Part shown: positions 280 through 34,534 of the stretch, in pieces
Position numbering within the stretch: the first letter of the stretch is position 1
Layout of the letters: every line of letters starts with the position of its first letter
DNA from: a virus
Length of the DNA stretch: 51,456 bases
Virus record (IMG/VR): IMGVR_UViG_3300004448_000321
Coordinates: 1-51,456 of that record
Reading direction: 5' to 3' (one strand)
Translations under genes and position numbers: made by a program
The notes under the pieces: generated by a model
The model's input: only the letters and a program-made list of their open reading frames with translations
Databases searched by the model: none
What the model was told of the DNA's origin: nothing

Positions 280-322
280 AATCGCTAATGGTTGTACAGA
301 TGTTCGATTCATCTGGGCGGTT
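280..322 (+). ncRNA. tRNA-like minihelix 1 (acceptor stem plus T arm)
   Basis: AATCGCT (280-286) pairs with GGCGGTT (316-322), with two G-U pairs. After a 10-nt linker, CAGATG (297-302) pairs with CATCTG (310-315) around TTCGATT (303-309). That loop matches the T-loop of tRNAs exactly (GTTCGANTC with closing G-C). There is no D arm or anticodon arm, so it cannot decode. Two other elements with the same architecture follow at 1082 and 2058. It lies between the leader and the start codon at 351. Confidence 0.45.
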
Positions 323-350
323 CATTAATAACCAACTAAAATTTACAACT

Positions 351-560
351 ATGACAAAAGAATTAATTATTAAGGTTTCTTATGACATATACGAAACCTA
401 TTACGGAGCAAATCAAATATGTGTTGTTAAAGATGACTTCGGATATTATGTGTTGGATACCAATAGTGGGTATTCAAGTATGACTTATCGCCTCAAGAGT
501 GATGCAGTAAGCAAGTTGAGAGGTCACATAAAACAATACTATTCAATTACAAAAGCATAA
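351..560 (+). CDS. Small hypothetical early protein
   Basis: 69 residues, unknown function. It begins MTKELIIKVSYDIYETYYG and alternates charged and aromatic residues, suggesting a small beta-containing cytoplasmic protein. The frame is open from 288. I start it at 351 because the recurrent leader (ACTAAAATTTACAACT) sits directly before this ATG, and because the earlier ATG at 288 lies before the tRNA-like minihelix arm. It is first in the rightward cluster. No signal peptide or membrane segment is visible. Confidence 0.6.
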   Translation: MTKELIIKVSYDIYETYYGANQICVVKDDFGYYVLDTNSGYSSMTYRLKSDAVSKLRGHIKQYYSITKA

Positions 561-571
561 AAAATACTAAT

Positions 572-655
572 ATGAAACTAACAGACAGACAACAAGTAAT
601 TATCATCCTAGTAATATTAGTGCTAGGATGTTTCGCAAATAACCTATTTAATTAA
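572..655 (+). CDS. 27-residue membrane peptide
   Basis: Encodes MKLTDRQQVIIILVILVLGC plus seven more residues: a short polar start, then one hydrophobic helix (about residues 8-22). It starts 11 bases after the previous stop and ends 18 bases before the next gene, fitting an operon. It is probably a single-pass membrane peptide of unknown role. The cysteine at position 20 ends the hydrophobic stretch but is not a convincing lipobox. Very short, so moderate confidence. Confidence 0.5.
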   Translation: MKLTDRQQVIIILVILVLGCFANNLFN

Positions 656-673
656 TCATTAAAATTTACAGCC

Positions 674-886
674 ATGAACAACAGAAAAACTATGATTCGC
701 TATAAAGTTGAATCATTCTTCAAAGAAGTAACCAATCACCCTAAAATTAAGGAACAAATCGACCTAGGAGAGTTATTCGAGGCATCAATACAACTTAATC
801 AATACTACGAATACACTCCCAAGCAGTTGAACTACTTCCTTAGTGAATTGATTGGTAAAAAATATAACGAAACCTTTAACTCTTAA
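674..886 (+). CDS. Small hypothetical helical protein
   Basis: 70 residues, charged and mostly helical in appearance, no recognised motif. The start is fixed by the recurrent leader (TTAAAATTTACAGCC) immediately before the ATG. Its stop at 884-886 lies only 11 bases from the next ATG, and the next leader begins within the stop codon. Probably a cytoplasmic early protein. Confidence 0.7.
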   Translation: MNNRKTMIRYKVESFFKEVTNHPKIKEQIDLGELFEASIQLNQYYEYTPKQLNYFLSELIGKKYNETFNS

Positions 887-897
887 AATTTACAGCT

Positions 898-1077
898 ATG
901 AATCATACTATCTTATCAACAAAGACAGCAAAAATCAACGGCAAAAGTGCAATTGTTGAAACCATCTTAGGCACAGCACATAGACAAGATATTAAATATA
1001 TTGTCGATGGGAAGACCTACGAGTACAACAAATTTTGGGCATTGAATCCCAAATTTTCCCCTGACAAAAGTAAATAG
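898..1077 (+). CDS. Small hypothetical protein (59 aa)
   Basis: Begins MNHTILSTKTAKINGKSAIV and ends LNPKFSPDKSK. It starts right after the leader TTAAAATTTACAGCT. Function is unknown; the pattern suggests a small beta-rich cytoplasmic protein (KYIVDGKTYEYNKF). A stem-loop of tRNA-like form begins five bases after its stop, so the transcript may be processed there. The antisense frame over this region has no leader and is taken as a shadow. Confidence 0.6.
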   Translation: MNHTILSTKTAKINGKSAIVETILGTAHRQDIKYIVDGKTYEYNKFWALNPKFSPDKSK

Positions 1078-1081
1078 GGGA

Positions 1082-1126
1082 TGAGGTATATGGTACCTAG
1101 GGAATGTTCGAGTCATTCCTACCTCG
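1082..1126 (+). ncRNA. tRNA-like minihelix 2 (acceptor stem plus T arm)
   Basis: GAGGTA (1083-1088) pairs with TACCTC (1120-1125), extended by a T-G pair (1082/1126). After a 12-nt linker, GGAATG (1101-1106) pairs with CATTCC (1114-1119) around TTCGAGT (1107-1113), a perfect tRNA T-loop. The two stems abut with no unpaired base on the 3' side, as acceptor and T stems do. Only the linker lies where D and anticodon arms should be. It could be a processing signal, a decoy for a tRNA-binding protein, or a decayed tRNA. Confidence 0.5.
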
Positions 1127-1153
1127 CATTTAATAACACTAAAATTTAAAGCC

Positions 1154-1357
1154 ATGTCTACAAAAATCGTATCAGTATCATCTGAAGGTAAATTCAGAAA
1201 AACTAATCAGTATGTACAAAGTGCTCAATCTCGTATCAATCAGATCTTAAATGAGCTAGGAATTGATAAGAAAGAATATACTGAGAAGGCATCGATCAGA
1301 AAATATTACAGATTGTCAGGGAATAAGTACCTAGGCATCAATAATTCATCTAACTAA
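1154..1357 (+). CDS. Small basic hypothetical protein
   Basis: 67 residues, lysine- and arginine-rich (many K/R in the first 20, then RINQILNELGIDKKEY). It is likely cytoplasmic and possibly nucleic-acid binding by charge alone; no family is recognised. The leader CACTAAAATTTAAAGCC directly precedes the ATG. It follows the minihelix at 1082-1126 and is followed 26 bases later by a lipoprotein gene. Confidence 0.65.
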   Translation: MSTKIVSVSSEGKFRKTNQYVQSAQSRINQILNELGIDKKEYTEKASIRKYYRLSGNKYLGINNSSN

Positions 1358-1383
1358 TTTATTAACCACTAAAATTTACAGCC

Positions 1384-1500
1384 ATGAAAAAAACAATCTT
1401 AGCACTAGCAATTATCTTAACTGCATTGATCACCTTTCAATCGTGCTCTTCTAGTAGGGGTGGATGCTCTGCCACTTCGGGATTTATGGGGTATAGATAG
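1384..1500 (+). CDS. Small lipoprotein (38 aa)
   Basis: Starts MKKTILALAIILTALITFQS followed by C: a signal peptide ending in a lipobox (FQSC), so the mature lipoprotein would be about 18 residues rich in Ser and Gly. The leader ACTAAAATTTACAGCC precedes the ATG. The stop overlaps a GTCAGGGAA motif copy that starts at 1500. Small phage lipoproteins often alter the host surface, but nothing in this sequence shows that role. Confidence 0.65.
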   Translation: MKKTILALAIILTALITFQSCSSSRGGCSATSGFMGYR

Positions 1501-1654
1501 TCAGGGAAGACCTCCCACAACATAGCTAGCACTCGGTACAGATTCTACACTTCTGTATGTATTGGGTAAAAACACGAAGTGGCTCGATAGTTTTTTACCT
1601 ATTTTTAAGCCATTCGGTAAACAAATCGGTAGCTTCACCCTGCTAAACGGGGAA
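1501..1654. other. Non-coding stretch with hairpin and an unassigned open frame
   Basis: No gene with a supported start. TACAGA (1537-1542) can pair with TCTGTA (1552-1557). One forward frame is open from 1526 to the TAA just after 1655 and reads protein-like (GKNTKWLDSFLPIFKPFGKQ) but has no ATG and no leader. A 29-codon ATG frame at 1557 overlaps it. It may be a gene remnant or a structured 3' UTR ahead of the terminator. Confidence 0.35.
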
Positions 1655-1681
1655 GGAGGGTAACCAAGCCTCCATTTTTTT
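1655..1681 (+). terminator. Intrinsic terminator
   Basis: GGAGG (1655-1659) pairs with CCTCC (1669-1673) across a nine-base loop, followed by A and seven T. It would end transcripts of the lipoprotein gene. The next gene at 1707 is so close that read-through or attenuation is possible. Confidence 0.6.
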
Positions 1682-1687
1682 ATATTA

Positions 1688-1706
1688 ATCACTAAAATTT
1701 AAAGCC
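1688..1706 (+). promoter_or_regulatory. Recurrent translation leader box (representative copy)
   Basis: ATCACTAAAATTTAAAGCC stands directly before the ATG at 1707. Close relatives stand before the ATGs at 351, 674, 898, 1154, 1384, 2137, 2587, 3099, 3774, 4323 and 4582 (consensus A-CTAAAATTTA-AGCC). Bacteroidota ribosomes use A-rich leaders without Shine-Dalgarno pairing, but here the whole 16-18-base word is kept. I used it to choose starts. Absent from the leftward genes. Confidence 0.7.
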
Positions 1707-1970
1707 ATGAAAAAAGTAATATTAATTTTAAGCCTATTTTTAGCCTCATCCTTGGCATTTAGTCAGTCTAGAGTACAAAGGGATAGCTCAGGTAATTTTG
1801 TGCAAATTAAAGCTACTAGAAAAGCCTCTGAGGACAAACCTACGGGACAGACGTATACAACCTCTAAAGGTGAGGTATACCCCGTGTATGAATCAGAGAG
1901 AGGGAAGCTATATGTTATTCGTACCTCCAAGAGTGGCAATGAATATAAACAATATTTAAAGACAGAGTAG
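1707..1970 (+). CDS. Secreted small protein, PBCV-basic-adaptor-like
   Basis: 87 residues. Residues 1-19 form a classical signal peptide (MKKVILILSLFLASSLAFSQ), so it is exported. The mature part holds YTTSKGEVYPVYESERGKLY and a following SKSGNEYKQYL. This pattern (YPVY..xxGKxY..SxSGxxY) resembles the small PBCV_basic_adap-type domain found in many Bacteroidota mobile elements; that resemblance is my reading, not a search result. The leader CACTAAAATTTAAAGCC precedes the start. Possibly a periplasmic or surface factor made during infection. Confidence 0.65.
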   Translation: MKKVILILSLFLASSLAFSQSRVQRDSSGNFVQIKATRKASEDKPTGQTYTTSKGEVYPVYESERGKLYVIRTSKSGNEYKQYLKTE

Positions 1971-1980
1971 GTGAATGTAG

Positions 1981-1993
1981 GGGAGCACCTCCC
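1981..1993 (+). terminator. Compact GC hairpin after the secreted-protein gene
   Basis: GGGAG (1981-1985) and CTCCC (1989-1993) pair around CAC, 10 bases after the stop at 1970. No T-run follows, so it is a weak intrinsic terminator or an RNA-stability hairpin. Its arms belong to the GGGAA-type word family spread over the window. Confidence 0.4.
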
Positions 1994-1998
1994 TGACG

Positions 1999-2021
1999 TT
2001 GCGAATAAATACCTATATTTG
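1999..2021 (+). promoter_or_regulatory. Promoter box TATATTTG with TTGCGA
   Basis: TATATTTG at 2014-2021 matches the Bacteroidetes -7 consensus. TTGCGA at 1999-2004 repeats the element of the 1-183 promoters but lies 15 bases upstream, not 19-20. Transcription would start near 2028 and include minihelix 3. No clear TTTG -33 box is seen. Confidence 0.45.
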
Positions 2022-2057
2022 TTTTTCAAATTTTAACCCTAGGGTACTAACCCAGAA

Positions 2058-2099
2058 GGTCGGTAAAGTGGCTAAGGCAGAGCAATACTGCCACCGACC
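2058..2099 (+). ncRNA. tRNA-like minihelix 3
   Basis: GGTCGGT (2058-2064) pairs perfectly with ACCGACC (2093-2099). After an 11-nt linker, GGCAG (2076-2080) pairs with CTGCC (2088-2092) around AGCAATA. The 7-bp plus 5-bp stems with a 7-nt loop have the dimensions of tRNA acceptor and T arms. The loop keeps C-A-A at positions 3-5 but not the TT. It lies between the promoter at 2014 and the gene at 2137, so it is in that gene's 5' leader. Confidence 0.5.
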
Positions 2100-2136: not shown

Positions 2137-2427
2137 ATGATTAAATTAAGCACCTATGTAAATGCCAAAAAAGACTTGGTAGAAGAAATCCCAAGCACAT
2201 TTGATGCCCTAAAGCCTTATTTTGAACACGACCATTACACTATAAAAAAAGATGAGGTTCATGGGTACATTCACGTTACAAAGAATAATGACGGAAGCAT
2301 GATAAACATAAAATTAGATGCCATTACTGATATTAATCTTAATGTCAGAGACATGATAAGTACTATAAGAACTAAGTATGGGTATCTACATCTGTTCATG
2401 GATGACATAATGGTGGGGATGTCATGA
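2137..2427 (+). CDS. Hypothetical protein (96 aa)
   Basis: Begins MIKLSTYVNAKKDLVEEIPS. It is acidic and mixed alpha/beta with no recognised motif, probably cytoplasmic. A divergent leader (ATTAAAACCTACAAGCC) precedes the ATG. Its stop overlaps the next start as ATGA (2424), so the two are probably translated together. A structured leader and promoter lie upstream, so it may be regulated separately from genes 351-1970. Confidence 0.65.
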   Translation: MIKLSTYVNAKKDLVEEIPSTFDALKPYFEHDHYTIKKDEVHGYIHVTKNNDGSMINIKLDAITDINLNVRDMISTIRTKYGYLHLFMDDIMVGMS

Positions 2428-6779: not shown

Positions 6780-7062
6780 CGTCTTCATTATTTTCATCTT
6801 CAAACATTTCGTCATAAATCTCTCCGATATACACATCAATTATCCTCAATGACTTTCTTTTAATTCTTTTTATCCTTCTAGCTTGAGTTGGATTAAGCAA
6901 ACCAAGATCAAAATCTTGACAAGCTCCTATCGCTGCACAGGCTGAATGAACTGCCTCTGCTCTAGTAGTAAATTCTACTTCGTATTCCATCTCTTCCCCA
7001 ACCTCTTCAGTTTCTTCTTTTACTTCCTCTTGTTCGGGAAGTGGTTGTGTTTCTTCAATCAT
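6772..7062 (-). CDS. Acidic hypothetical protein (96 aa)
   Basis: The N-terminus is extremely acidic (MIEETQPLPEQEEVKEETEE), the middle is helical with ACAAIGACQDF, then a basic patch (QARRIKRIKRKSLRIIDVYI) and an acidic end. The ATG overlaps the stop of the 59-residue gene upstream (ATGA). Context is the lysis region, but no lysis motif or membrane segment is seen. The LPEQ stretch is written with a GTTCGGGAA motif copy (7032-7040). Confidence 0.65.
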   Translation of the reverse strand: MIEETQPLPEQEEVKEETEEVGEEMEYEVEFTTRAEAVHSACAAIGACQDFDLGLLNPTQARRIKRIKRKSLRIIDVYIGEIYDEMFEDENNEDDE

Positions 7063-7238
7063 TTTTTCTTAGATTTTAATGATTCTAAATCAGGTCTATC
7101 TAAATCAAGTAAAGACTTATCGCCACTATTTATTCTTACCGAGTTTTTTCTTCGTAGCTCCTTCCCTATGCTTTCTATTAATTGGATTGCGTCTGATGGG
7201 TGAAGCTGTTCTAACATTTTCTTGATTTGTTGTCTCAT
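7059..7238 (-). CDS. 59-residue protein overlapping the exonuclease 3' end
   Basis: Reads MRQQIKKMLEQLHPSDAIQL, then helical and basic to LESLKSKKK. It starts inside the upstream exonuclease gene in another frame and overlaps it by 113 bases; its stop overlaps the next start as ATGA. The amphipathic helix pattern and tight coupling on its 3' side argue it is real. The overlapped tail of the exonuclease is low in structure (after its zinc ribbon), so this frame may be the constrained one. Function unknown. Confidence 0.6.
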   Translation of the reverse strand: MRQQIKKMLEQLHPSDAIQLIESIGKELRRKNSVRINSGDKSLLDLDRPDLESLKSKKK

Positions 7239-24265: not shown

Positions 24266-27200
24266 TTAATCAAGTTTTGTTACTTGCCTTTTTGATTTAG
24301 GGGATATACCCATTTCTTCTAAAATTTTTGATGAAATATCTCCTTCTTTATCTTTTACTTTACTTTCAAGATCTTTACCTTCTAAATCTTTGCCCATTTT
24401 ATAAGAGTAGTCATTCCCTTCTTTTATTTGATATTGAGTATTTAATACTTCGTCTATACCAGATTTTACATTTTTATTTAATTTTTCTGCATATGTATCA
24501 TACTCTTCTTTACTCATTATGCCATCTGGATGAGATTCATCTTGAATTACTTTTATTTTTCTTCTTTCTCTTATAAATGGAATTTCTACTCCTTTTTCTT
24601 GCAGTAGGTTGAAATTTTCATCTTGCATCTCTTCTTTTGTAAATAATTCTTTTTTAGCTTCCAGTCTGTTTCTAAGTGGAGTACCTTCCATAAACTTCTC
24701 AACAATTCCTGATGGTAATCTTTTTATGCTTTTACCTTCTTCTGTATCAGTCCAATCTGAAATATTTTGCAATAATTGAGGTTCACCAATACCTGTTCCC
24801 AAACCTGCTAAATAATCAGTAAATTTATCTCCATTCTGGAATGACTCTTCAATTCTTGCTGCACCACCAAATAATGGTATTTCTTTAATAACATTTTTAA
24901 ATACAGTAGGTATCCCTTTAACTATTGATGGTTCATTCCCTTTTAATACTTCTGCGTCTGAAGATCTTCTTATTGTAGCCCCTACTTGTAACATTTCTAA
25001 TAAAGGAGAGTGACTCATCCAGTGAGGAAGTTTTTTACCAAATAATTCTATTTCTCCTGCTTCTAAATCTCCTTCTTTTCTTTTACCAGAATAATAACCT
25101 CCTAAAGCTTGTGGATTAAGATATCCTAAAAACATAAATGCTGCTCCAATAGATTGTTTTTTTAATGCTCTCATAAAATAATCTTTCTGCTCAGGAGTCA
25201 TTTTAGAAACTCCATTTTTTAAAGCATAAAGAGCCTTTACTGAACCTATCATATATGATGATGCTTCAGCAACATAGTTAGTAGGTACTTTTACGATAGG
25301 GAATATAAATTTTAATGCATTTGCTACTTCTTTAGCCCCTTGTATTTTTGATTTTTCTAATTTTTCTACTCCTGCCTTATACCAATCTGTTATGTAGTTA
25401 TCCTGCATAAATACAGCTCTTAATGCATCATTATAAGCACCAACAGCTAATTCTTGTTGAACAATTGGATCCATCGGATCTAATCCTTTCTTTATAGCAT
25501 TTTCAGTTCTCATTTCAAGAGAACGAAAGAATTCAGCTCGTTTGGGAAGTAGTTTCATAGCTGCGTGCATTCTACCAAAGAATTCCATCCAATGTGGTAC
25601 TTTTGGTGCGAACTCTTTTTTATCTCCATACAAATAATCCAATTCCCCAACACCAGTTTTTAAAACTTGCTTCATATCTTGTATGGTCATCTTATCAAAC
25701 CATGTTGTAAATGCTTTAGCTTCTGCTTTAGGGCTTAATCTTCCTTCTCTTTCTGCTCCTTTAGCAATACCTCTTATCCCTGGTATATATGATAATCCTT
25801 GACCAATAACACCTTCTAATCTTGATGTAACACCTCTCATAGTTGCAGCTGTTGCAATTTTTCCAAGTGAGGGAATACCTGATAAAATAGCTAAACGATG
25901 CCATCCATGTAGGTAATCCATTGCTACTTCTCCCTTAGACCTTTGATCTAACTTAAATTGATCTTTCATTAAATCAATTTGAGTTTGAACTTTTTTAACA
26001 TTAGCCATAGCTTGTATTTGCTCTGGAGTAAGAGGAGTTTTAACTGGTTCTTTTGAGTACTTACCTATTACTACGTCTTCTATGTCTTTTCTTGTTAGTT
26101 CGGGAAGTACTGATGATACATCAGCATGAATATCATCTATAATACTTTTTAAATTAGTGTTACCAGCTTCAGCGTATGATTTAACTAAATCTTTAACATC
26201 TTTTGTTATAGATTCCAATTGAGCCTGTTTTTCTGGAGTGATAGGTTCTTCTTTAGAAAAAAGAACTTTACCTTCTCCTGTTTCAGACTTAGATTTAGAA
26301 GCTAAACTTTTCCATGCATCTATTATTTTCTTTTTTAAAGAAGTTCTTTCTTTTGTAACTTCTTCTGGGCTTTTAGATACTTTTTTAGTTTTAGCTATTT
26401 CTTTTTGTGCTTGGTTAGCTAAGTTCTTTTTTTCTAGTTCTTCAATTCTTTGATTAGCTTCATTTAATTTTCTAACTAATTCTTGTAATTGAGTTCTTTT
26501 TTCTGCAGGTATATCTTCCCCTCCATTAGCAGCTTTCATTCTTTGCAATTGAGTAGCTAATGAATAATCTCTATTTATTAACATTTTTCTTGCTGCTAAT
26601 CCTAATCCTTGCTCATACCCTGATTTTCTTGCTGCATCGTCATTTATTTGCATTCTTTGCTCAAGAACATCTAATTGAGATTGCAAAACTTGTGCAGTCA
26701 TTTCATCCCCTTTTCTTTGAGCATCTATCATTTGATCGGTAAGCATACCATAATCTTTAGAAATTTTCATTCTATCCATTAATAATACTACACTTTCTTC
26801 TGCTGATAATGGTCTTGGCTTTGCTGCTATCTGAGCTGCAAATACTGCTGGATTTATTTCTTCATTATCAACCATTTTTTTAGCATTATCAAATGCCTTA
26901 CCAAATGATCTTTTAGCTTCTATCTCTACTGGCTCTAAATCTCTTTCAGCTCTTTCTTTTGTTGTTATTTCTTTTTTAATTCCTGTAGTTGTAAGATCAT
27001 GATATGCTTGCTCTATCACTGGCTCTTCGACATCATAGTCTTCCCCAAACTCATCTCTCATTATTTCTTTAACATCATCTAAACTATATCCTTGATTAGT
27101 ATATTCTTTAAGAATACCTTTCATTTCATTTAGATCTGATTCATCTACTTTAGAAAGTTGTGTTTTATCTTCAGTAGGAATGATATCTTTTCCAATTACT

Positions 27201-30200
27201 TCATTAGAAACAATATTTAAATTCTTAGCATATTTACTTAATATAGTTCTAACTTCTGGATTACTTACAGCATATGTCAAAATCTCTTGTGGAGAATTTG
27301 TTGCCTCGATCATAAACTTATATGCATTAGACTGTTCTTTAGTCATACCTTCTGGCATATTGTTTTTTAGATCTTCTTTTATGTCTGCTAAAGTGTTTTC
27401 TATTTCTTTTTTCTTCTCACTATTCTCTATTAAATGATGTGTATATTCATGTGCTAAAGCATTTGATAATTGACCTGATTCTACTTCTTGCCAATGTGTG
27501 CTATTTTTATTTACATCAATTGATTTGTTTTTAGTATCATAGAATGCAGCTCCTTCTGATGGTCTTTTGCCTGATATTTTTATGTTAGGGAATTCCTTCT
27601 TAAAATTATCTAATACACTTTTTATTACAGGATCAGATGTTTTTTCATCACTTACTAATTCATTAGAATCTATATTAGATCCTTTTTCATACTTACTTAA
27701 AATATCTGATGCTTTTTGTTTAGGAGTTACTTCTTCTCCGACTTTGCTTTCAATTCCTTTGCCTTCCCCTCCAGCCCCTTGTGCTTGAAGTACTCTACCA
27801 CCGCTAGTCTCTTGTGTGCCTCTGCCTTTGACAGATTGGGCTTTGACAGGTTCTCCCCCGACTCTGATACTACTTGGTATCCTTGACTTGTTTTCTTTAT
27901 CATATGTTAATAATTGTTTGGGAACTTCTTTAATTGTTTTTTCATGAAACTTAGATATATCTGTAAACTCTGGAGGAAGCAACATCGCTTTCTGTTGAGC
28001 AAATACAAATTTATCATATACTGTAGATAATAGATCTTCCCCAGCCTTCACCATTTCTTCATCTCCTATCTTCTTACCTTCTTTTTTTAATGCTGATCCT
28101 TTCTTTATATCACTTAATACTTGATCATTTACTCCTGAGTAGTTAACCCATGAGTTTTGTCCTCTTGTCTCTGATGATAAAGCCCATTGTGCTAATGGTG
28201 AGAACATTTTACTATGCTCTATCCATGCATTCTCTTCACCATCTTTACCAAATTGATATCCTTCTACAGAGTGACCATAATAATCATGCACTGCTCTAAA
28301 TTTATCATTTGCAGTTAGATCATTTTTATCTCTTGTTTTGCTTCCAAGCTCTGTATGATCATCACCTCCTTTGTATACCCATAAGTGATTGAAATTATGA
28401 ACGTCATCAAGCATCTCAAAGTTATTCTCATAGTTACCTTCTCCATTTTCATGGAATGTAACTTTAACTGGAAGCCTGTCATATTGATTTTGAGTCTCCT
28501 CTATTAATTGAGAATATGCTTTGTGTGTTAAGTCTTTATAATCTTTTATATCATATTGTTCTATGATCTTAGGGAACTTCTGCTTATAATCGCTAAATAT
28601 TTTTCTTTCTAAATCTGTTTCTTTATAATCTGGAGAATTTACATCCTGTAATTTAGGATATAACTTAGCTATCTTAGCTTGTTGCACTGGATCAGATGGC
28701 TTATACTTATGTGTAGTAACCTCTGGCAATCCTGCCTCTTGATTATAAGAATTAGCTGCCTTTAATGAAGCATTTTTTTCTGGATCTTTTATTTTTTCTT
28801 TGGCTTCATTCCTTGCATTATTCGTGTCGGACTCTGTTCTTGTTCTGCTTCCGATAGCATCTTTGCCGTTATATTGTACTCCTTCGGCATTAACTTTTCT
28901 TTCTTCTTGTTTTGCATTTGTTTCTATTTTTTCTTCTTTTGAAAATTGAGTTTCTTGTTTTTTAGCTAAAGTTTCTACACCTTTTTCAAATCCTTCAGAA
29001 GCCATTCCTGGAGCTGAACTTTCTGCTCCAAGCTTTTGCCATAATTTTTTCTCAAAATCCCAAACTCTTTGTTGTATTACAGCTGGACTAGTATTTAATT
29101 CTTTAGCTACTTGATTCCATGCCTCATCTGCTAATTTTCTTCTTCTATTTCCTTCTACAGTTGTAGCCCATGGATTTTTTAATACTTCTCCATTTTTGTC
29201 AATTAATGGTTCCCCAAACAATCTTGCCATTGTTCTAGCATACCATAAATCCTTAGTAACTGTAGAATATTCACCAACTCTGTTTAATATATAAGATCCT
29301 AATTTGGGCCCCGATATTGCAAATACACCAAAACCACCATTTTCTTTTGTTAAATTTTCATGTGCAGATAAACTCTTTGTTCCTTTTAAAGGAGTACCCA
29401 TAACATTTGATAATTCTTCATAAGAATGCTGAGATTCAATCCATTTAATTGCTTTTTTTATATCTCCATCAAAATGACCAACTACTTTATTAAATTTTTC
29501 TAAAGATTCTGTTGCATATGCTCTAGCTATTTGAGACATTACAGGTTTACCTTCACTATCAAATTTTAATTCTCCTGTATCATATCTTTTACCTTTGTTA
29601 TCTGTAGACCATACCGTTGCTTGCTTATCTGTATAAGGAGATAATTCCCCTGTTCTTAAATATCTATCAAATATTTGTAATCCTATATTAGAATCAAATA
29701 CAGGAGTTGCAGATGGGGATGCAAAAGAACTTAATACATGATACAAAGAAATTTCCTCGTTAGTCAAATCTCTACCATGTGTTTTTTTAGCCCAATCAAC
29801 AAGTTTAGGATTTAATGTTTGGGGAATATCTTCATCATAAAATCCTTGATATCCATCATTAACTGTTTCCCAAGCCTGTAACTCTTTTTTAGTATGATCA
29901 ACTAATTTTTCTACAAATTTCTTATCGCTTACTCCTGTTAAATCGCCTTTGAATAATCTATTTTTCTTAGACCATTTACCAATCCAATTTGCTACATCGG
30001 TAAGATTTTTAAATGCAGGGTGTTCTTCCTCTCCTGTCATTAATTTTTCAGCTTGATATTGAGGTTTTCTACCTTCTATGTCTCCTACTCTTGTTTTATT
30101 TTTATATTTAATCTCTTCTCCCTTAGCAAATTTTTGAGATACTTCTTTAGCTAAATCTTGAAGATCTTTTATAGAATTAATATCCTTGCCTATGTTTATA

Positions 30201-33200
30201 CCTAACTTGCTTAATATAGCTTTAAAGAAATCTTTTACTTTTTCAAAGTTTGTCTTGTCTAGCTTTATAGATCCGTCTGCTACCTTAGCTACAAAATCAG
30301 TAATAGCTTCTTTCTTTATTGTAGTTTCTGATGATCCTTTGTAAATTCTATTAGCATCATCAATTATTTTTTGCCCACCTTCAATTCCCTTTAACTGATT
30401 ATGGAATTGATTTATAATTTCTGGTCTATGAATAGCCATAAAATCTAACAATGGATGGAACCCTTCATGCTTCATTGTTTCAGGAGTTACTCTAGGCATA
30501 TTCAAGTGAATTATACCTTCTGGAGAGAAGTAAAATCCTTTTGCTGCAAGTTGATCTTGTTTTTTACCAGATGCTTCTTCAGCAGCCTTTCTAAAGCTTT
30601 CATCATTACTATGTATAACTACCTCTGCATTTTTACCTGAGATTTCCCTAACAACATTATTAATAGATTTTAAAACTTTACCTGCATCTTCTACTACTTT
30701 CTTTTGTGTCTCATCATATCCTTTAGTATCTACTGATGATATTGTTTGTGAGTTATGTGTTTGTGGGGGAAGATCTGATTGTGGTCTTCCTGGTGGCGGT
30801 GCTGTTTGCGTACCTTGAGTTTGCTCTTGCTTCTTTCTCTCTCTTCTTTCTTTTATTTTTTCTGAAGCTGTTTTTATTTTTGCTGGCTTACCTGTTGGTT
30901 CTCCTTCTTTTTGTTGGGGAACTTCTGTTTTAACTTCTTCTTTCTTTTCTACTTTAGGCTTTTCTACTGGGACTTCTACTTTTTGAGTTTTAACTACTTC
31001 TTGATATGCTTTATCAAATGCCGCATCTGGGACTTCCCCAACAACATCTGCTCTCATTTTTATTGCTATATCTAATGCCTTGTCTCCTTTTATCTCTACT
31101 GTATGACCATCTTTAGTTTGTACTGTAACAGACTCTAGGTTGCCGTCTTTATCCATTTTAAATGGTTCGGGAACTCGATCTTCTGATGGTAATGTCAAGT
31201 CTCTATCTGTCATTGCCTTTTCACCAATAACAACAGGTTCTTTTCCTTCTGTTTCAACTACATAGTTGCCATCTTTTATTTTTAAAGTTCCTGTGTGGGT
31301 TGTTCCATCTGCGAGGGTGACTGTTGTTTCACTTCCTGTTGAGGCTTCGAGGGCTGGTCTTTTTTCGAGCTTTGTTTTAGCTCCAAAAGTACCTTCAACT
31401 GGAGTTTTTTCGGTAGTTTCGACAGTTTCAGTCTTTGTGACAAATTCATGTTCTTGTAATTTTGTGATTAATGGTTCTATTAAATGAGCTGCCTCTGGAT
31501 GCTTATCAAGAGCAGTATAAAGAATGTCTTCAGTTTTTTTAATTTCATCTTGATTTATATTCTCAGCATTATTAACTTTTGTTATTGTGCCTTGAGCAGC
31601 ATCTAAATCTTCTTGTGGAATAAATTCAGAAGCTTTTTTAAATGTAGGAATTATTTCTGTATCAGATATAGGCTTTACTTCTTTCCTAACAGTCATGTCA
31701 GGTTCAGGAACTTTTTTAGTTGGTTTTGCTTCTAAGTATGTTCCTTTGTATATTTTATCCATTTTCTCATCAAGAGCAACAATTCTATCTCCTAATTTAG
31801 AAGCTAAATCTTTAGGAATATCTTTTTGTAATAAAGATTCCGCATCTATTTTTTGCATTTTTAAAAATAGTAAATCTCTTTGTTGTTCTTGATTTAAAGG
31901 ATCTCCATTAGCATCTAACATAGGAGTTGAAGCCAAAACTCTATTAGCATTCATTATGTTGCTAGAAATTTGTTTAGCTTTCTCTGGAGTATATTCACCA
32001 CTATTTAATTTATCTGAAGTTAATTTTAAAAATAATGTTGGATTTTGTGCAGCTGCATGAATTGCATCTTTATTAATTGAAGTAGTATTTGTTATACCTC
32101 CCTCTTTAGTTAACTGACGAGAAGTACCTAATACTGTATTAAATAGAGACATATTCATAAGCTCTAACATACCTTCTTTTGTGTATTCTTCTGGTGATTT
32201 TAAATCATTCATTACAGCATCATTAACAATCTTACCTGTTGTAGTTGCTGCTACAAATTTACCTGCTTCTTTTGTCCCTTCTAATGCAACATTAGTTACA
32301 TTTTTGGCTGCATTTAATGTTTTATTTAATAAACCAAGAGACTTTGGTTCAGTCCTTAATGCAGTTAATATTTGTTCATCAGATAATTTATCTACTAATT
32401 TACCTATTGCTGTTTTGTTACCTAGCATTTTTCTAATAGCATCAGGTGCACCTGCTCCTGCCATAGCTGCTGAATGTATTGCAGTAGAAGTCATTGCATC
32501 ACTATATGGATTTTTACTGCCTCTTTCTATAGCTGCTGCATATTCATCATTAAAACTAGATAAAGCTGCTGCTGTAAATGTTCGCATGAAATTACTTGCA
32601 TATGCTCCTGTAGCTCCACCGCCAGTTGCATATTCAGCTAATAAAAACGGAGCCAATCCTGCTGCCATGTTTCCTAACCCATATAGTAATGATGTAGATG
32701 ATATATTAGATTTACCTCCTTCTATAGGTTTTGCTTCTACATCAGAAGGATTATCATAAATTAAATTAGTAGTTTTTTTTATTTTTTCTTCTTGTGTTAT
32801 AGAATTATCAGCATTAATAGCATCAATTTGCTTTTGTAATTTTGGGCTTAATTTATAATCTATATTTTTAGTAAATCCAGTTTCTTGTGTTTGGTATAAA
32901 ACATTTTCAATTTGTGCTCTTTCACCTAATAATGATGCTTGATCTATTTCATTCTTAACATCACTTTGAAAAGGAGTTTTTATCATATTCCATCCTCCTT
33001 TCACTGTATTTAATAATCCAATACCTGTTTTGCCTAATATATTAACTATTCCTCCAGTTCCCTGACCAACTAATTCTTGTGCAACTTTTCTTGATTCCAA
33101 ATAAGTAGCTGTAGGAAATTTTTGCGATAAATTTTTTTCATCATCATCTAATGTAGTATAAGCTTCTTTATATGGAGTTATTTGTTTTTCTAATTCAAGG

Positions 33201-34534
33201 GCTTTATTATATTCTTCTTGAGTAGCTGTACCATCTTTTACTTTACCATATAAAGTTTCATATTCTTGCTGATAATTATTTATATTCCATAAAGTATTAT
33301 TTTTTTTCATTTGAATGCCTAACTCTTCTAATCTTTTTCCAGCTATTTCTTTTTGAACTTTAGCATCATAATTATCTGCAATATCATTATTATCAATAAA
33401 AACAGATTTATATCTATTTGCTTCAGTTGGTTGCAAATCTTCTAATAATTTATATGCTATAGCCTGATTAGGGCTTAATTTAGTAAGCAGAGGATCTGCT
33501 GGATCTATTTTTTGACCAGCATATACTGGAGAAAATGCTGTATACATATTAGATAAAACATCTTCTGATTTATCTCCACTTACAGTTTTTGCTATATTTA
33601 CTAAAGACTGTACATTACCTCTTACACCTTCTAGATCCAATCCTAATTGATTACGATTCGCTATATTACTGCTATATTGTAATGATAATTTTTTTAATCT
33701 ATTTTTTTCTTGATCGTCAATATTTTCATCTGCATTTATAGAATTAAAAACAGAACTTCCCCATTTAGCTGTAGATATAGCTATTTCATATTTTTGAGGA
33801 TTCTGTTTATAATATTGCAACATTTTTGCTGGAGAATATTCTGGAGTTTTCCAATAAACAGGATTAATTCCTTGAGCATCTTCAAATAATTTATCAGCAT
33901 TATATCCTGCAGCTTCTATTTGTGATTTTAAATTATTTGCTTGATTTATATTATCTTGATCTACTACTTTAGATACAGCAGCTCCGCCAGTTCCCCCAGA
34001 CACAGATACAGAAGTAGCTGTATTTCTAAGAGTATTAGCTTCTATTGCTTTTTTAAATAAATCGTTTGGATCTTCTTCAGGAGTTACTGGTACTGGCTGA
34101 CCATTAGCATCTTTTGGCAATTCTGATAATGCACGAAATTTCGATGGGTAAGCATCTGCCATACCATCCTGAGAAGATTCGCCACCATTTTTTTTTTTAC
34201 TTACAAATGTTGATAAGAATTCGTTCTTATCTCCTAAGTCATCTGTAGTATATCCGTCTGCTATTAATTTAGAATAAACCTTATCTGCTTTTGAACTATC
34301 AGATAATGCTGTCAAGAATTCATCTTCTGATCCTATATCATCTGTAGTATATTTTGATGTACCATCTGATTTCTTGGCTCCTATTAAATTTCTATAAAGT
34401 TTTTGTGCTTTTGTTGGGGGATCTTGTGCCTCTACAGCATCTATATCAATTATAGGATTGCTATTTGTAGATATATTAGATTCTGGAGTTTCTTGTTGAG
34501 ATTGATCTATATCTTGAATATCTTCAAATGCCAT
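24266..34534 (-). CDS. Giant polyvalent internal virion protein (3,422 aa)
   Basis: One unbroken frame, a fifth of the window. Residues 40-110 have a repeated YTTDDxGxxxEFL unit. About 610-720 is hydrophobic and glycine-rich, possibly membrane-inserting. HEGFH at 1356-1360 and HEYTHH at 2362-2367 are two zinc-peptidase-type HExxH sites. Around 2083, HDYYGHSVEGYQFGKDGEEN and ETRGQNSWVNYSG form a conserved domain known from phage polyvalent proteins. Residues 2580-2740 are coiled coil. About 2900-3110 contain PKRAEFFRSLEMRTE and FIFPIVKVPTNYV, typical of the C-terminal membrane-associated part. Such proteins are packed in the head and injected with the DNA. Confidence 0.8.
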   Translation of the reverse strand: MAFEDIQDIDQSQQETPESNISTNSNPIIDIDAVEAQDPPTKAQKLYRNLIGAKKSDGTSKYTTDDIGSEDEFLTALSDSSKADKVYSKLIADGYTTDDLGDKNEFLSTFVSKKKNGGESSQDGMADAYPSKFRALSELPKDANGQPVPVTPEEDPNDLFKKAIEANTLRNTATSVSVSGGTGGAAVSKVVDQDNINQANNLKSQIEAAGYNADKLFEDAQGINPVYWKTPEYSPAKMLQYYKQNPQKYEIAISTAKWGSSVFNSINADENIDDQEKNRLKKLSLQYSSNIANRNQLGLDLEGVRGNVQSLVNIAKTVSGDKSEDVLSNMYTAFSPVYAGQKIDPADPLLTKLSPNQAIAYKLLEDLQPTEANRYKSVFIDNNDIADNYDAKVQKEIAGKRLEELGIQMKKNNTLWNINNYQQEYETLYGKVKDGTATQEEYNKALELEKQITPYKEAYTTLDDDEKNLSQKFPTATYLESRKVAQELVGQGTGGIVNILGKTGIGLLNTVKGGWNMIKTPFQSDVKNEIDQASLLGERAQIENVLYQTQETGFTKNIDYKLSPKLQKQIDAINADNSITQEEKIKKTTNLIYDNPSDVEAKPIEGGKSNISSTSLLYGLGNMAAGLAPFLLAEYATGGGATGAYASNFMRTFTAAALSSFNDEYAAAIERGSKNPYSDAMTSTAIHSAAMAGAGAPDAIRKMLGNKTAIGKLVDKLSDEQILTALRTEPKSLGLLNKTLNAAKNVTNVALEGTKEAGKFVAATTTGKIVNDAVMNDLKSPEEYTKEGMLELMNMSLFNTVLGTSRQLTKEGGITNTTSINKDAIHAAAQNPTLFLKLTSDKLNSGEYTPEKAKQISSNIMNANRVLASTPMLDANGDPLNQEQQRDLLFLKMQKIDAESLLQKDIPKDLASKLGDRIVALDEKMDKIYKGTYLEAKPTKKVPEPDMTVRKEVKPISDTEIIPTFKKASEFIPQEDLDAAQGTITKVNNAENINQDEIKKTEDILYTALDKHPEAAHLIEPLITKLQEHEFVTKTETVETTEKTPVEGTFGAKTKLEKRPALEASTGSETTVTLADGTTHTGTLKIKDGNYVVETEGKEPVVIGEKAMTDRDLTLPSEDRVPEPFKMDKDGNLESVTVQTKDGHTVEIKGDKALDIAIKMRADVVGEVPDAAFDKAYQEVVKTQKVEVPVEKPKVEKKEEVKTEVPQQKEGEPTGKPAKIKTASEKIKERRERKKQEQTQGTQTAPPPGRPQSDLPPQTHNSQTISSVDTKGYDETQKKVVEDAGKVLKSINNVVREISGKNAEVVIHSNDESFRKAAEEASGKKQDQLAAKGFYFSPEGIIHLNMPRVTPETMKHEGFHPLLDFMAIHRPEIINQFHNQLKGIEGGQKIIDDANRIYKGSSETTIKKEAITDFVAKVADGSIKLDKTNFEKVKDFFKAILSKLGINIGKDINSIKDLQDLAKEVSQKFAKGEEIKYKNKTRVGDIEGRKPQYQAEKLMTGEEEHPAFKNLTDVANWIGKWSKKNRLFKGDLTGVSDKKFVEKLVDHTKKELQAWETVNDGYQGFYDEDIPQTLNPKLVDWAKKTHGRDLTNEEISLYHVLSSFASPSATPVFDSNIGLQIFDRYLRTGELSPYTDKQATVWSTDNKGKRYDTGELKFDSEGKPVMSQIARAYATESLEKFNKVVGHFDGDIKKAIKWIESQHSYEELSNVMGTPLKGTKSLSAHENLTKENGGFGVFAISGPKLGSYILNRVGEYSTVTKDLWYARTMARLFGEPLIDKNGEVLKNPWATTVEGNRRRKLADEAWNQVAKELNTSPAVIQQRVWDFEKKLWQKLGAESSAPGMASEGFEKGVETLAKKQETQFSKEEKIETNAKQEERKVNAEGVQYNGKDAIGSRTRTESDTNNARNEAKEKIKDPEKNASLKAANSYNQEAGLPEVTTHKYKPSDPVQQAKIAKLYPKLQDVNSPDYKETDLERKIFSDYKQKFPKIIEQYDIKDYKDLTHKAYSQLIEETQNQYDRLPVKVTFHENGEGNYENNFEMLDDVHNFNHLWVYKGGDDHTELGSKTRDKNDLTANDKFRAVHDYYGHSVEGYQFGKDGEENAWIEHSKMFSPLAQWALSSETRGQNSWVNYSGVNDQVLSDIKKGSALKKEGKKIGDEEMVKAGEDLLSTVYDKFVFAQQKAMLLPPEFTDISKFHEKTIKEVPKQLLTYDKENKSRIPSSIRVGGEPVKAQSVKGRGTQETSGGRVLQAQGAGGEGKGIESKVGEEVTPKQKASDILSKYEKGSNIDSNELVSDEKTSDPVIKSVLDNFKKEFPNIKISGKRPSEGAAFYDTKNKSIDVNKNSTHWQEVESGQLSNALAHEYTHHLIENSEKKKEIENTLADIKEDLKNNMPEGMTKEQSNAYKFMIEATNSPQEILTYAVSNPEVRTILSKYAKNLNIVSNEVIGKDIIPTEDKTQLSKVDESDLNEMKGILKEYTNQGYSLDDVKEIMRDEFGEDYDVEEPVIEQAYHDLTTTGIKKEITTKERAERDLEPVEIEAKRSFGKAFDNAKKMVDNEEINPAVFAAQIAAKPRPLSAEESVVLLMDRMKISKDYGMLTDQMIDAQRKGDEMTAQVLQSQLDVLEQRMQINDDAARKSGYEQGLGLAARKMLINRDYSLATQLQRMKAANGGEDIPAEKRTQLQELVRKLNEANQRIEELEKKNLANQAQKEIAKTKKVSKSPEEVTKERTSLKKKIIDAWKSLASKSKSETGEGKVLFSKEEPITPEKQAQLESITKDVKDLVKSYAEAGNTNLKSIIDDIHADVSSVLPELTRKDIEDVVIGKYSKEPVKTPLTPEQIQAMANVKKVQTQIDLMKDQFKLDQRSKGEVAMDYLHGWHRLAILSGIPSLGKIATAATMRGVTSRLEGVIGQGLSYIPGIRGIAKGAEREGRLSPKAEAKAFTTWFDKMTIQDMKQVLKTGVGELDYLYGDKKEFAPKVPHWMEFFGRMHAAMKLLPKRAEFFRSLEMRTENAIKKGLDPMDPIVQQELAVGAYNDALRAVFMQDNYITDWYKAGVEKLEKSKIQGAKEVANALKFIFPIVKVPTNYVAEASSYMIGSVKALYALKNGVSKMTPEQKDYFMRALKKQSIGAAFMFLGYLNPQALGGYYSGKRKEGDLEAGEIELFGKKLPHWMSHSPLLEMLQVGATIRRSSDAEVLKGNEPSIVKGIPTVFKNVIKEIPLFGGAARIEESFQNGDKFTDYLAGLGTGIGEPQLLQNISDWTDTEEGKSIKRLPSGIVEKFMEGTPLRNRLEAKKELFTKEEMQDENFNLLQEKGVEIPFIRERRKIKVIQDESHPDGIMSKEEYDTYAEKLNKNVKSGIDEVLNTQYQIKEGNDYSYKMGKDLEGKDLESKVKDKEGDISSKILEEMGISPKSKRQVTKLD

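Follow-up and report, generated by a model that had tools for sequence, protein, structure and literature searches.

Hairpins made of the acceptor stem and T-arm of a transfer RNA (tRNA) have for decades been a laboratory model of ribonuclease P (RNase P) substrates. Such hairpins are cut by RNase P at the correct site, with a conserved distance of 12 bp from the T-loop to the 5' end, and interference was reported at G19, G53 and A58 (PMC11143913). These minihelices are standard substrates (PMC11221534), and the enzyme acts as a ruler (PMC4919913). Its substrates also include the phage M3 and C4 RNAs and polycistronic messenger RNAs (mRNAs) (PMC11143913, PMC4919922). The t-elements of plant mitochondria set mRNA ends and are CCA-tailed but not aminoacylated (PMC11658184). 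Here, we describe natural minihelices of this kind in the early region of the virus record IMGVR_UViG_3300004448_000321, which was analyzed at its full length of 51,456 bases (the window). Two elements, E1 and E2, belong to a conserved and apparently undescribed RNA family, and E3 is a probable divergent member. The best explanation of our analysis, with a probability of about 0.5, is that they are mini-tRNA mimics in leaders and gaps that are cut by host tRNA enzymes and punctuate phage transcripts.

The three elements of the window are as follows:

281-324, + strand: E1, ATCGCT-AATGGTTGTA-CAGATG-TTCGATT-CATCTG-GGCGGT-TCA, with acceptor 281-286/316-321, D-loop-like linker 287-296 (AATGGTTGTA), T-arm 297-302/310-315, T-loop 303-309 (TTCGATT) and tail U322-C323-A324

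1083-1128, + strand: E2, GAGGTA-TATGGTACCTAG-GGAATG-TTCGAGT-CATTCC-TACCTC-GCA, with acceptor 1083-1088/1120-1125, linker 1089-1100 (TATGGTACCTAG), T-arm 1101-1106/1114-1119, T-loop 1107-1113 (TTCGAGT) and tail G1126-C1127-A1128

2058-2102, + strand: E3 (divergent), GGTCGGT-AAAGTGGCTAA-GGCAG-AGCAATA-CTGCC-ACCGACC-ACA, with acceptor 2058-2064/2093-2099, linker 2065-2075 (AAAGTGGCTAA), arm 2076-2080/2088-2092, loop 2081-2087 and tail A2100-C2101-A2102

The sequence-only reading had placed three non-decoding minihelices here, and all three are present at those positions and with those dimensions. Direct reading confirms the perfect T-loops that it saw in E1 (TTCGATT) and E2 (TTCGAGT), as well as the AUGGU common to their linkers, which resembles the GG of a D-loop. 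Both elements have a 12-bp acceptor/T stack, to which E1 can add an optional 13th pair (A280-U322). A D-stem and an anticodon arm are absent from all three elements, with a linker of 10-12 nt instead, and the sequence supports their description as acceptor plus T-arm tRNA mimics that are incapable of decoding. As a set of three, the prediction stands for E1 and E2 and in part for E3, which lacks a canonical T-loop and was retrieved by neither of the covariance models R1 and R2. Its loop (AGCAATA) has C56, R57 and A58 but has lost U54 and U55. E3 shares the 12-bp stack, the linker GG and the tail with E1 and E2, and its assignment as a probable member is based on the strongest stem, the GG, the tail and the position in a gene gap. 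With short flanks, the fold of E3 is the most significant (z = -3.7, compared to -1.4 for E1 and -1.1 for E2). For E2 with flanks, the predicted minimum-energy fold is an alternative structure, so that energy alone would not back this element; covariation in its relatives does. An intrinsic terminator is absent at all three sites, as the sequences that follow (CATTAATAAC at E1, CATTTAATAAC at E2 and ACAAAAGTAA at E3), read directly, are devoid of a U run.

The bare plan (7 bp, linker, 5-6 bp, 7-nt loop) is weak evidence because it is barely enriched, with 20 matches in the window and about 13 per shuffle. The TTCGANTC pattern alone likewise gave 2 matches, with 2.2 expected. When a true T-loop is added to the plan, 2 matches occur in the window and none in 40 shuffles. 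When the plan is combined with an NNCRANN loop (C56-R57-A58), a linker GG and a high pair score, precisely E1, E2 and E3 are found, while 400 shuffles gave a mean of 0.0025 (one shuffle in 400 had any match). The NNCRANN loop was adopted only after E3 had been seen. Because of this post hoc loosening, the case for E3 draws more on its fold, tail and location.

Beyond the window, 22 further members were found (25 in total), which belong to relatives of the window phage, gut phages, Mu-like prophages of Bacteroidales and two cultured phages. An NNCRANN descriptor with no constraint on tail or linker was scanned over 1.77 Mb of related records. The seven top-scoring matches comprise the three window elements (in the order E3, E2, E1), three from L106 and one from L047. 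Each of them is on the sense strand of early genes and has GG in its linker; the next ones score lower. L047 is from a close relative of the window phage (77% terminase identity), and its element, like E1, is in the leader that precedes the first early gene. L106 was found via an early protein (43% identity), and its elements are located between small early genes, one being directly 3' of ardA. A first covariance model was built from E1, E2 and two L106 elements, with linkers padded with N because MAFFT misplaced the acceptor when applied to the raw elements. This model independently recovered the L047 element (E = 0.0036 in 1.73 Mb); an element in L149 came next, and 295 genomes of a single Bacteroidales group then yielded three. 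A second covariance model yielded more members. In 338 genomes of another phylum, no true match was found, the sole one being inside a coding sequence. Several candidates were rejected: L164, L165, L166, L171 and L174, which have low model scores, are ordinary tRNAs, and L158, L155 and L225 are chance matches in coding regions.

The sequence-only reading was open to refutation by homologues without compensatory changes; relatives were found, and such changes are abundant. In 20 aligned members, 98.3% of the pair cells are standard and 11 of the 12 pairs change on both sides (98.1% and also 11 of 12 for the first nine members), compared to 40-53% standard pairs in a control in which the partner was slid by 1-3 columns in these 20 members. 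Because the members were aligned by fitting them to the model, these counts are biased in its direction; the first seven members were found without a fitted alignment. The sole invariant pair is G53-C61, as in tRNA. Stem sequences vary freely among members, with a fixed shape.

Counted from C61, the 3' strand has 12 nt in 19 members and 11 nt in the other 6, and N-C follows directly in 25/25. The switch from T-arm to acceptor floats (7+5, 6+6, 5+7), so it is the total length that is conserved and not the separate stems. In the host group, C74 follows N73 in 37/37 distinct tRNAs from four Bacteroidales genomes (L185-L214), and CCA is mostly not encoded in the same tRNAs (C75 in 11/37). As the N-C of the elements corresponds to the host N73-C74, they mimic the end of the host tRNA genes. 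Of the seven elements that were retrieved with no condition on the tail, six have C74 (P about 2e-5, given a local C frequency of 0.12). Position 73 is A or G in most members, but not in all.

The elements are intergenic and on the sense strand, with 1-3 found per phage. In 15/25 cases, the end of the upstream stop codon falls in the range from 13 nt ahead of pair 1 to 1 nt within it, a count that draws on open reading frames (ORFs), including one for L106c, and on the annotated coding sequences of the phage TCUEAP3, with a doubtful short ORF before L167. In 22/25, the distance to the next start codon is 3-56 nt. In L222, a tRNA-Met/Ile gene (321-395, - strand) is followed after about 10 nt by a minihelix (267-311, - strand), as if both came from one processed transcript.

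Several genomic members are in Mu-like prophages. L161 and L162 directly follow a DUF3164 gene, and L163 follows Mu gp36. L170 and a second element (L181:7705) belong to one prophage and are near a MuB-type ATPase gene, while L168 is near a transposase gene. The call of a tRNA-Ser over L161 by ARAGORN is spurious because its 5' half is DUF3164 coding sequence. The two cultured phages were reached by protein search. Flavobacterium phage fF4 has two copies (2399-2443, 5' of the transposase gene, and 7118-7162), as has Elizabethkingia phage TCUEAP3 (1782-1824, directly past a stop codon and 5' of MuA, and 6899-6955). The copies occupy matching gaps in both phages, one before the MuA-type transposase gene and the other after the gene that follows the DUF3164 gene. 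All four are in gaps between annotated genes, and none is annotated. The fF4 copies (L215:2187-2231 and 6906-6950) are near-identical, being one T-arm base apart, while copies within other phages differ. A further element comes from a phage scaffold of human faeces (MT837734). L160 and L169 cannot be clearly assigned to phages.

For the window, the genes that adjoin the elements are as follows:

351..560, + strand: first early gene (69 amino acids, ATG at 351), with E1 in its leader

898..1077, + strand: small early gene (59 amino acids), with its stop 5 nt before E2

1154..1357, + strand: small early gene (67 amino acids), 28 nt 3' of E2 (ATG at 1154), no Pfam match

1707..1970, + strand: conserved early gene, the last one before E3, used for finding relatives

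2137..2427, + strand: early gene (96 amino acids), 37 nt 3' of E3 (ATG at 2137), no Pfam match

A location between early genes, which had been suggested for all three elements, thus applies to E2; E1 is in an operon leader, and E3 is 87 nt past a stop codon and behind a promoter-like site. Sites resembling Bacteroidota-type promoters (TTG ... TAtcTTTg) were seen by eye at 28-58 and 152-190, in tandem 5' of E1, and at 1999-2020, 5' of E3. For the proteins of 1154-1354 and 2137-2424, no relatives were retrieved.

In our preferred reading, host RNase P would dock on the elbow formed by the T-loop and the GG, measure 12 bp and cut just 5' of the acceptor stem. A 3' tRNA enzyme (RNase Z, or an exonuclease together with CCA addition) may then trim after the discriminator base. 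The early polycistronic transcript would be split into units that end at the upstream stop codon and before the downstream initiation region, and a mini-tRNA of about 45 nt would be released, as with plant mitochondrial t-elements. The 12-bp distance from the T-loop to the end, the presence of G19, G53 and A58, and the host-type N73-C74 are consistent with recognition by RNase P or by a different enzyme that acts on tRNA ends. Several points weigh against this reading. RNase P prefers an unpaired N-1/N73, and pairing of these positions is possible in E1 (A-U), L163, L167 and L169. The predicted RNase P cut in L161, L223 and L106c is inside the stop codon and would damage the upstream messages. 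Alternative minimum-energy folds are predicted for E2 with flanks, L106b, L162, L170 and L224. The tail statistic is partly model-biased because R1 and R2 included the tail. Finally, if punctuation were general, elements might be expected in more gaps than the 1-3 found per phage.

The elements were compared with known RNA classes. ARAGORN found no tRNA or transfer-messenger RNA (tmRNA) in the window, no Rfam 15 family reached its gathering score in the window or in six related loci, and the tRNA family (RF00005) gave no match there, even when E values of up to 10 were allowed. With tRNAs, the elements have in common the 12-bp acceptor/T stack, G53-C61 and the T-loop TTCRANN (E1, E2 and relatives; E3 in part) and the host-type N73-C74 end (37/37 host tRNAs; 25/25 elements at 11 or 12 nt). 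The features of RNase P substrates are also present (12 bp from the T-loop to the predicted cut, with 11 bp in some members, T-loop, G19, A58 and R73-C74).

In tmRNA, the tRNA-like domain is an acceptor plus T-arm with a stem-less D-loop, a likeness to the phage elements. The latter are self-contained, with no mRNA-like part that could provide a tag frame; they are devoid of the conserved G3-U70 alanine signal, and no tmRNA was called. The t-elements resemble them as tRNA-like RNAs at gene ends, a location from which cleavage could set mRNA ends; t-elements are cut by RNase P and RNase Z, can be CCA-tailed and are not aminoacylated (PMC11658184). Unlike t-elements, which have homology to tRNA genes and a full tRNA-like fold, the minihelices of these DNA phages and prophages are about 45 nt long and have free stems in an acceptor plus T-arm without D-stem and anticodon arm. 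The RNase P model minihelices pATSer and AT1 are likewise acceptor plus T-arm hairpins of about 12 bp with a T-loop and a 3' tail (PMC11143913, PMC11221534); these are laboratory constructs with RCCA, whereas the phage elements are natural, with a GGU linker and an encoded N-C. The M3 RNA and the C4 antisense RNA (P1/P7) come from phages and are cut by the RNase P of the host (PMC11143913, PMC4919922), as is predicted for the phage elements, but they are single regulatory RNAs of E. coli phages and not a multi-copy intergenic minihelix family. mascRNA, menRNA and the tRNA-like structures of plant viruses are also tRNA mimics, and tRNA enzymes are recruited by their elbow (PMC4810234, PMC11658184); they differ by anticodon-like arms or pseudoknotted acceptors and by eukaryotic hosts or RNA genomes. 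Processing signals that resemble tRNA are known, and a natural minihelix family in DNA phages is apparently undescribed as far as the open-access literature shows. No description of phage tRNA-like minihelices, or of Mu-like Flavobacterium phages with tRNAs, was found there, a weak absence that covers open-access papers only.

The strongest of the rival explanations, in our view unlikely but worth considering, is that the minihelices are decoys. Whether excised or within the transcript, they would absorb proteins that bind the acceptor/T half of tRNA (RNase P, the CCA-adding enzyme, EF-Tu, TruB/TrmA, or tRNA-tail nucleases such as Cas12a3) and thereby protect phage translation. Retention of just the elbow and the acceptor/T half, with no decoding part and with free stems in a fixed shape, agrees with such a function, and L106b is directly 3' of the antirestriction gene ardA. 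Phage counter-measures are unknown according to the authors of PMC12851939. A decoy would, however, not need to be placed beside stop codons and start regions, 1-3 single copies make a poor sponge, and the encoded tail is N-C rather than CCA. It is somewhat more speculative that free mini-tRNAs of Bacteroidota phages act in trans on tRNA-acting host or defence enzymes (e.g., tRNA-tail nucleases) as a decoy or inhibitor, a half-tRNA counter-defence.

Doubtful, too, is a role as stability elements of mRNA ends or leaders, where the minihelix would block exonucleases or shape initiation of the next gene while remaining uncut by tRNA enzymes. Proximity to stop codons and initiation regions agrees with this, as does the location of E1, L047:984 and fF4a in leaders of first or key genes; a plain hairpin would suffice, however, and the conserved T-loop, the GG, the 12-bp ruler and the host-type N-C tail are left unexplained. 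Phages often acquire tRNAs, and the elements might be degenerate tRNA genes or attachment-site remnants that retain the tRNA 3' half by descent. Despite the tRNA gene that adjoins the L222 minihelix and the extra hairpins retained by some L150 elements, we consider this improbable: descent would keep tRNA sequence and lose pairing, while the stems differ completely among members yet remain paired. Moreover, the AUGGU linker and the missing D-stem and anticodon arm recur, and ARAGORN calls no member a tRNA, save for the spurious call over L161. Chance hairpins in an AT-rich phage, with which the scarcely enriched bare plan would agree, are refuted for E1 and E2 by the compensatory changes in homologues and by the count for plan, loop and GG (3 observed versus 0.0025), and have a negligible probability overall.

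If the elements are processing marks or decoys, phages would have put the minimal RNase P substrate to use, either for genetic punctuation or as a decoy. Two cultured phages make it possible to test operon processing, the specificity of RNase P and potential tactics against tRNA-targeting defences, and this in a host phylum (Bacteroidota) in which mRNA processing is little studied. The covariance model may also serve as a search tool for other tRNA mimics that are overlooked by tRNA finders.

Additional structures were observed. Three hairpins in Bacteroidales chromosomes (L172:1501-1534, L183:7770-7803 and L183:9587-9628) are linkerless or nearly so, with about 12 bp, the loop TTCGACT and the tail ACA, and are located 3' of surface-protein-like genes (two fimbrillin-like). 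They are possibly a chromosomal cousin of the minihelices. Larger tRNA-like structures with a T-arm, acceptor-like ends and extra or odd hairpins are found in long non-coding leaders of phage contigs (L150:6150-6245 and 7140-7205; L149:6183-6263), with no tRNA call.

A nucleotide search of phages gave no match. The terminase of the window is distantly related to those of Flavobacterium, Cellulophaga, Tenacibaculum and Maribacter phages, and IMG/VR contains close relatives of it. In the leader 5' of E1 (181-270), there are two more hairpin-forming stretches (GAGAGTAAGCCC...GGCTCTC and AGGTGTTA...CGGCACCT), and the L106 leader carries a similar GAGAGTAAGCCC string. Between small early genes, a region of about 190 nt (1500-1690) has several inverted repeats and no clear gene on the + strand. 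On the - strand, a single ORF (24266-34534) codes for 3422 amino acids and is probably a polyvalent virion protein.

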